Assembly: GCA_947628845.1 (NCBI GenBank)
Contig: CANRBK010000004.1
Location: forward strand, 1-41,427
Source of the DNA: an uncultured Clostridia bacterium
GTDB taxonomy: Bacteria > Bacillota > Clostridia > TANB77 > CAG-508
DNA length: 41,427 bases
Direction of reading: 5' to 3'
The notes under the pieces were generated by a model. It was not told the DNA's origin and did no database searches. It worked only from the letters and a program-made list of their open reading frames with translations. Made by a program: the position numbers and the translations under genes. Positions 5,676 to 6,146 of this stretch are shown piece after piece; within the stretch, counting starts at the first letter, position 1, and every line of letters starts with the position of its first letter.

Positions 5676-5681
5676 AAAAGT

Positions 5682-5717
5682 GGGGAAAGGAAAAAATATT
5701 CCAATCCCCCTCTTTTT
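5682..5717 (+). terminator. Intrinsic terminator of sleB-ypeB
   Basis: GGGG (5682-5685) pairs with CCCC (5706-5709), and an inner GGAA/TTCC stem is present. The hairpin is followed by TCTTTTT. It lies seven bases after the ypeB stop codon. Confidence 0.8.
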
Positions 5718-5721
5718 ATGT

Positions 5722-6115
5722 TGAGCATTTGCCATAGAAGTATAAGTATCTTTTTGAAAGTTAACTATTCATTGCGTTCAAAAAGAAATTTTAATATAAA
5801 AAATCGAGCCTCTTTCACTCAGGCTAAAATGATTACTAATATATTCTTTTAAATGAAACGACGAATGTGCCGTGGAATGGCTGTAGAAATTCTAAATAAA
5901 ATCAATTAGGGAATCTCGTTACACGAGGGCGCTGATTGATTTTATCTAGAATTTCTAGGACATGTATCAAGCCGAGGAGTGTAAAGCAAAAGAATATATT
6001 AGTAATCATTTTTCCGTGAACATCCCTCAATTTTTTATATAAGAATTTCTACTTTTTCACTTCAATCAAACGTTAACTTTCAAAAAGATACTTATACTTC
6101 TATGGCAAAGGCTCA
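5722..6115. repeat. 394-bp nested inverted repeat; candidate large structured RNA or MITE-like element
   Basis: Three nested pairs of arms are visible. The outer arms 5722-5765 and 6072-6115 match over 44 bases with a single mismatch, the inner 38 being perfect. Middle arms 5826-5850 and 5988-6012 match perfectly over 25 bases. Inner arms 5884-5906 and 5935-5957 match over 23 bases with one mismatch. The stretches between outer and middle arms (5766-5825, 6013-6071) are also partly complementary. Two interior segments, 5851-5883 and 5958-5987, are not, and they are richer in G and C than the surroundings. The apical part 5907-5934 contains a CTCG/CGAG mini-hairpin. No open frame or transposase is present, and no clear target duplication flanks it. 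I cannot assign it to a known family. Confidence 0.85.
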
Positions 6116-6120
6116 GTATC

Positions 6121-6146
6121 AAAAAAGGGAAAATGTTTTCCCTTTT
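6121..6146 (-). terminator. Intrinsic terminator of the VanW-family gene
   Basis: On the minus strand AAAAGGGAAAA pairs with TTTTCCCTTTT across a tiny loop and runs into TTTTTT. The hairpin overlaps the TAA stop codon at 6145-6147. Confidence 0.75.

Follow-up and report, generated by a model that had tools for sequence, protein, structure and literature searches.

The window analysed here, a 41,427-nucleotide stretch of DNA from an uncultured Clostridia bacterium (contig CANRBK010000004.1), carries ypeB (TIGR02889) and a VanW-domain gene that converge on a long palindrome, each gene having its own terminator. We found four inverted-repeat pairs, from 5708 to 6129, nested around unpaired islands (Table 1), a span that reaches slightly beyond the ends given by an earlier note made from the sequence, into the A/T runs of both flanking terminators. 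The palindrome folds with an MFE of -172 kcal/mol on the plus strand (shuffle mean -76; z -16.7) and -177 kcal/mol on the minus strand (shuffle mean -82; z -15.9), and no ORF of at least 80 aa was found inside it. The nested inverted repeat of the earlier note is thus real (four nested pairs, fold z about -16 on both strands), and its description as ORF-less and lying between convergent genes holds as well. Elsewhere in the window, Rfam identified a tRNA cut by the window start (1-71) and a small SRP RNA (911-1007), with dnaX and recR downstream.

The earlier note had been unable to match the palindrome to a known RNA class, and our Rfam search agrees: no family matched at gathering threshold, and what a permissive search returned was weak and sub-threshold throughout, for the most part miRNA-type hairpins that scored far under their cut-offs. 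Known RNA classes (raiA, OLE, ROOL and others) were therefore rejected. The element resembles these large Rfam RNAs in size, in being non-coding and in having conserved islands within helices; unlike them, it is mobile and multicopy.

Table 1. Features of the palindrome and its flanks, with positions in the window. C35 and C39 are the other copies in the same genome.
Feature	Position	Strand	Basis
Intrinsic terminator of ypeB, adjoining the element on its upstream side	5680-5717	+	GTGGGGAAAGG...CCCCCTCTTTTT by reading; same layout at copies C35 and C39
Outer arm, left	5708-5785		78-nt pair, 85% complementary to 6052-6129; matched changes relative to copy C35
Helix 1, left strand	5784-5808		25-nt inverted-repeat pair, 88%; both-side changes over 22 copies
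Outer internal-loop module, left strand (GAGCCTCTTTCACTCAGG)	5806-5823	-	Conserved; fixed spacing to core
Middle stem, left strand	5819-5850		32-nt pair, 91%; sequence variable, complementarity kept in relatives
Core island, 5' strand (CGACGAATGTGCCGTGGAATGG)	5859-5880	+	GAATGYG....GRA nearly invariant in 50 diverse copies
Core hairpin (P stem), 5' strand	5884-5909		26-nt pair, 92%; 20 of 22 consensus pairs changed on both sides
Apical loop motif AGGGAATCTC..GAGGGCGCT with CTCG/CGAG hairpin	5908-5933	+	Fold and conservation; strand-specific G-U excess in adjacent pairs
Core hairpin (P stem), 3' strand	5932-5957		Inverted repeat; both-side changes
Core island, 3' strand (..CATGTATCAAGCCGAGGAG..)	5958-5987	+	RCCGAG nearly invariant
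Middle stem, right strand	5988-6019		Inverted repeat
Outer internal-loop module, right strand (CCGTGAACATCCCTC)	6014-6028	-	Conserved; fixed spacing to core
Helix 1, right strand	6026-6050		Inverted repeat; both-side changes
Outer arm, right	6052-6129		Inverted repeat
Intrinsic terminator of the convergent VanW-domain gene	6121-6146	-	By reading

The outer module (GAGCCTCTTTCACTCAGG / CCGTGAACATCCCTC) is present in some copies of the element, not all, and its spacing to the core is fixed at 38-40 nt in 13 copies of several species. On the minus strand (GAGGGATGTTCAC..GTGAAAGAGGCTC) it resembles, in an unscored comparison by eye, the apical motif (GAGGAAGCGCG..CGAGAGGCTC). At two loci (L054 and L173) an outer-type module sits at the core apex instead.

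Copies of the element and their hosts

The window genome (1.3 Mb, 97% complete) contains three copies, namely the window copy, C35 (91%) and C39, which is cut by a contig end. DNA-level matches were present in 50 of 98 species of the genus. A pattern built on the core was found in 34 of 96 species; the richest genome gave 17 matches, and a reversed control pattern almost none. Core model R1 matches the window at 5851-5988 (106.7 bits), and a covariance model of the core (two islands plus hairpin), run on 191 genomes of the order from 39 genera, detected it in 75 genomes and 18 genera. Many of these genomes have at least 17 copies, and all positive genomes but one belong to the same family. At least 30 core copies were counted in a single MAG, BRZ_ES__bin101 (L212, L217, L223 and other loci), some only ~1 kb apart. 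We also observed three core copies (L334) in G145, a genome that belongs to a different family of the order, and these may reflect transfer or mis-binning. Named records with the core are uncultured Clostridia, Clostridium sp. and Eubacteriales MAGs, and their sample labels include chicken, rabbit, goat and sheep. No match to the element was found in phages or plasmids (blastn) or in viral contigs (pattern), and a phage or plasmid origin was rejected on that ground.

At the ypeB-vanW locus of other species, the interval measures 33-84 bp and holds a plain hairpin in three cases (L350, L352, L364), as against 476 bp in the window; the window's core recurs there in three other species, once in the opposite orientation. 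In the majority of the species examined, a different palindrome fills this interval. These palindromes, often with GGGGACG-type units, were observed at L338, L341, L344, L348, L349, L351, L354, L359 and L362, that of L341 being doubly nested. The frequent presence of some palindrome in this gap, together with the terminator T runs that adjoin the window, C35 and C39 copies, would suit an element that serves the host between convergent genes, terminating transcription in both directions or stabilising mRNA. We consider such a function very unlikely, since both neighbouring genes have terminators of their own and 101 copies occupy every kind of gene arrangement, 16 of them divergent. A restriction of the element to convergent genes was rejected on the same count, and the convergent setting of the window copy is atypical of the family.

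Ends, target duplications and IS66 transposases

In relatives, GTTAC/GTAAC terminal inverted repeats bound many of the copies. Among 47 copies with such ends, 14 are flanked by exact 8-bp target duplications (0.02 expected from mismatched pairing of ends) and 25 by 8-bp duplications with at most 2 mismatches, and exact repeats of 7, 9 or 10 bp at the ends of the same copies showed no comparable excess. Duplications of 8 bp are not expected of Y1 enzymes, which makes it hardly credible that the element is a REPIN-type repeat dependent on a REP-associated Y1 transposase. GGGGACG-type palindromes do abound in the same intergenic regions, as in the outer arms of certain copies, but the window copy, by reading, has no such unit.

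The closest relatives (G093) carry a second end type, TTTAAGTTTC, with direct repeats of at least 8 bp in 7 of 40 as against 0.8% in the control, a difference to be read with caution given the low-complexity flanks. An autonomous partner or transposase for this end type was sought and not found. The end type TTTAAGTTTCRGTA was observed in G093, G029, G034 and G087, with direct repeats of at least 8 bp in several G093 copies; its transposase was not found.

The GTTAC-type ends recur on IS66 elements. At L166, a 1672-bp insertion sequence with ends GTTACTGTTCAGACTAG and the 8-bp duplication CAATATTT encodes a transposase that matches the IS66 family in Pfam (PF03050, E 1e-27) and scores 164 bits against NCBIfam IS66, whose cut-off is 180. 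IS66 ORFs (PF03050) lie in sister-species elements ended by GTTACTGTTCAG, GTTACTACTCAG, AGTTACTAGTCAG and GTTACTAGATAATGG, several of them with 8-bp duplications; IS66 elements other than that of L166 have GTTACT-type ends and duplications, and in G087 the end GTTACWGTTCAG is common to a GTTAC-ended element and an IS66 element. This sharing holds for the GTTAC-ended relatives and not for the TTTAAGTTTC type or the window copy, which has neither a clean terminal repeat nor a target duplication and whose genome gave no IS66 match at E 1e-20. Because no more than 12 of the 96 genomes gave an IS66 match, and element-rich genomes such as G013, G066, G074 and G085 gave none, we claim no correlation between the element and IS66 across genomes.

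The conserved nested core was absent from the IS66 elements checked. It occurs with different end types, and the same IS66-type ends also bound short bare hairpins without a core. Hairpins of ~50-130 bp with IS66-type ends and no core were seen at L167-L170 and at other GTTACWGTTCAG pairs (G066, G085, G038, G087), and G066 alone has 51 end matches. At L055 (460-840, genome G029), an element that has the outer module and long perfect arms differs in its centre (CGACAAAGGCTGAGCCTGG...CCATGGAGGAG), and many partial relatives of these arms lie in the same genome. Copying of arms from host genes was rejected, an arm query in G029 having returned its own two arms and partial, graded matches that were not inspected singly.

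We conclude that the element is very probably a non-autonomous, MITE-like transposable palindrome without a protein gene that has spread in one family of uncultured gut Clostridia. The mobile-element class is firm for the family and, for the window copy, would follow from homology. Features typical of MITEs are its dispersal, its multiple copies and its lack of a protein-coding gene, with terminal repeats and duplications in relatives only. The window copy, with its missing clean ends and duplication, is an old insertion into the stretch where the terminators of ypeB and the VanW-domain gene lie. GTTAC-type ends and 8-bp duplications, common to the relatives and to sister-species IS66 elements, suggest that an IS66-type transposase of the sister-species kind may mobilise the element in trans. 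Against a MITE stand the window copy without clean ends or duplication, the lack of an IS66 match in its genome and in many element-rich genomes, and the TTTAAGTTTC ends of the closest relatives, for which a transposase was not found; nor does a purely double-stranded DNA element explain the strand bias of the apical pairs described below.

The earlier note had favoured a stand-alone structured RNA over a MITE, and had held that many copies with target duplications would mark the latter. Such copies exist at family level, in relatives, the window copy having no duplication, and with the terminal inverted repeats and the related IS66 elements of sister species they leave that preference unsupported.

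Covariation in the arms and the core

The islands stay nearly invariant across the 50 diverse copies while the stems vary, which bears out the first description of unpaired islands and an apical hairpin inside long helices. In helix 1, 12 of 23 pairs are changed on both sides over 22 copies, with 95% of cells paired, and the core hairpin is changed on both sides at nearly all its pairs (Table 1). Such massive covariation, strictly Watson-Crick and found throughout the stems, is not decisive for an RNA, because a DNA palindrome can also produce compensatory changes. Mismatches in the distal arms had no strand preference (71 G-U against 69 A-C), as against 12 G-U and 0 A-C in a tRNA control from the same loci, and between sister copies double changes outnumber single ones; both observations lead us to infer a DNA-level process that keeps the arms complementary. 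Within one genome, the stem cells of 30 copies comprised 149 double, 22 G-U, 12 A-C and 89 other differences from the consensus, many of the last at pairs that the consensus fold places doubtfully, and many island bases were invariant in 30 of 30 copies. Compensatory substitutions, put forward at the outset as a test of the stems, are thus abundant but mostly not RNA-like, with matched double changes and no wobble preference in the arms.

An undivided count over the P stem gave a G-U to A-C ratio of 50:7. When the count was divided by position, the excess proved to lie largely beside the apex, where pairs adjoining the loop have a strand-specific wobble excess (50 G-U against 4 A-C), much of it from a recurrent pair next to the apical motif; the rest of the stem has 18 G-U against 9 A-C (p 0.12). 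The apical excess leaves room for a core that is read in a folded, single-stranded form, either RNA or ssDNA.

As RNA, the ~140-nt core would be a new structured class (ribozyme, protein-binding or regulatory) carried as cargo by palindromic transposons, with the arms exposing or stabilising it. The islands conserved across 18 genera under completely changing stems, the 20 of 22 pairs with both-side changes, the apical G-U excess and the occurrence with different end types all argue for this, but the arms have no G-U excess, that of the main P stem is small, promoter-like matches are no more than chance and the outer module apparently lies on the strand opposite to the core. Moreover, copies in tandem gene settings are more often antisense (38) than sense (21) to their neighbours, an orientation that gives no support for a co-transcribed RNA. 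We regard the cargo RNA as unlikely, and it is doubtful that the core is an unrecognised RNA class, strand-specific near the apex, riding IS66-type palindromic transposons whose arms are continually rewritten in matching pairs. The original proposal of a new large structured RNA is partly supported at best: the conserved islands and apical hairpin speak for it, and the mobile, multicopy family against it.

Alternatively, the element might act in the form of a folded DNA single strand, in the manner of integron attC sites or IS200/IS605 ends, with the islands as protein contacts in an extruded hairpin. Integron attC sites have conserved unpaired bases in a stem of varying sequence whose pairing is kept, and the element likewise keeps its unpaired bases conserved and stays palindromic whatever its sequence, with a strand-specific bias near the apex only. 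Yet it does not lie in an array, and its 8-bp duplications and ends, together with the IS66-type DDE transposases, point to double-stranded insertion, so we judge this mode of action quite improbable.

In the MITE-like transposable palindrome that we prefer, arm sequence drifts fast and complementarity stays high, probably through inter-arm correction at the DNA level, either by template switching in the palindrome or by an equivalent step during copying. Template-switch mutation at quasipalindromes has been described (PMC7202029). The islands are under purifying selection and may be bound when one strand is folded, as an extruded DNA hairpin or as RNA; such binding could help the element to transpose, replicate or be tolerated.

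Relation to known elements

Single-ORF IS66 elements and their derived MITEs share GTTAC... ends, 8-bp duplications and, in sister species, an IS66 DDE transposase with the element, whose copies differ in holding the conserved nested core and whose window copy has neither clean ends nor an IS66 match in its genome. The bcr1-bcr18 repeats of the Bacillus cereus group are intergenic and dispersed, some MITE-like and some with conserved secondary structure (PMC3446304). The element, compared with them by description, is similar in these respects and differs in its host lineage, its concentric islands and its arms that co-vary between sister copies. Correia/NEMIS, ERIC, RUP, BOX and QMITE are bacterial MITEs with stem-loop transcripts, usually of 100-200 bp (PMC2229807, PMC10969869); they too are small, AT-rich and protein-less, with inverted ends, duplications and stem-loop folding, whereas the element reaches ~500 bp and keeps its core across 18 genera under changing stems. 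Neither an IS66 MITE from Clostridia nor a comparable structured-RNA MITE turned up as a precedent in a literature search, and this family of palindromic, MITE-like elements of IS66 affinity is apparently new, no description having been found.

Our analysis brings to light, in the uncultured gut Clostridia, a large and apparently undescribed family of mobile palindromes whose core is kept across 18 genera. Matched double changes account for most differences between sister copies, and wobble intermediates are few; where the DNA itself is palindromic, compensatory substitutions therefore do not by themselves make a good case for a functional RNA. The family provides a natural test case for the evolution of long palindromes in bacteria.
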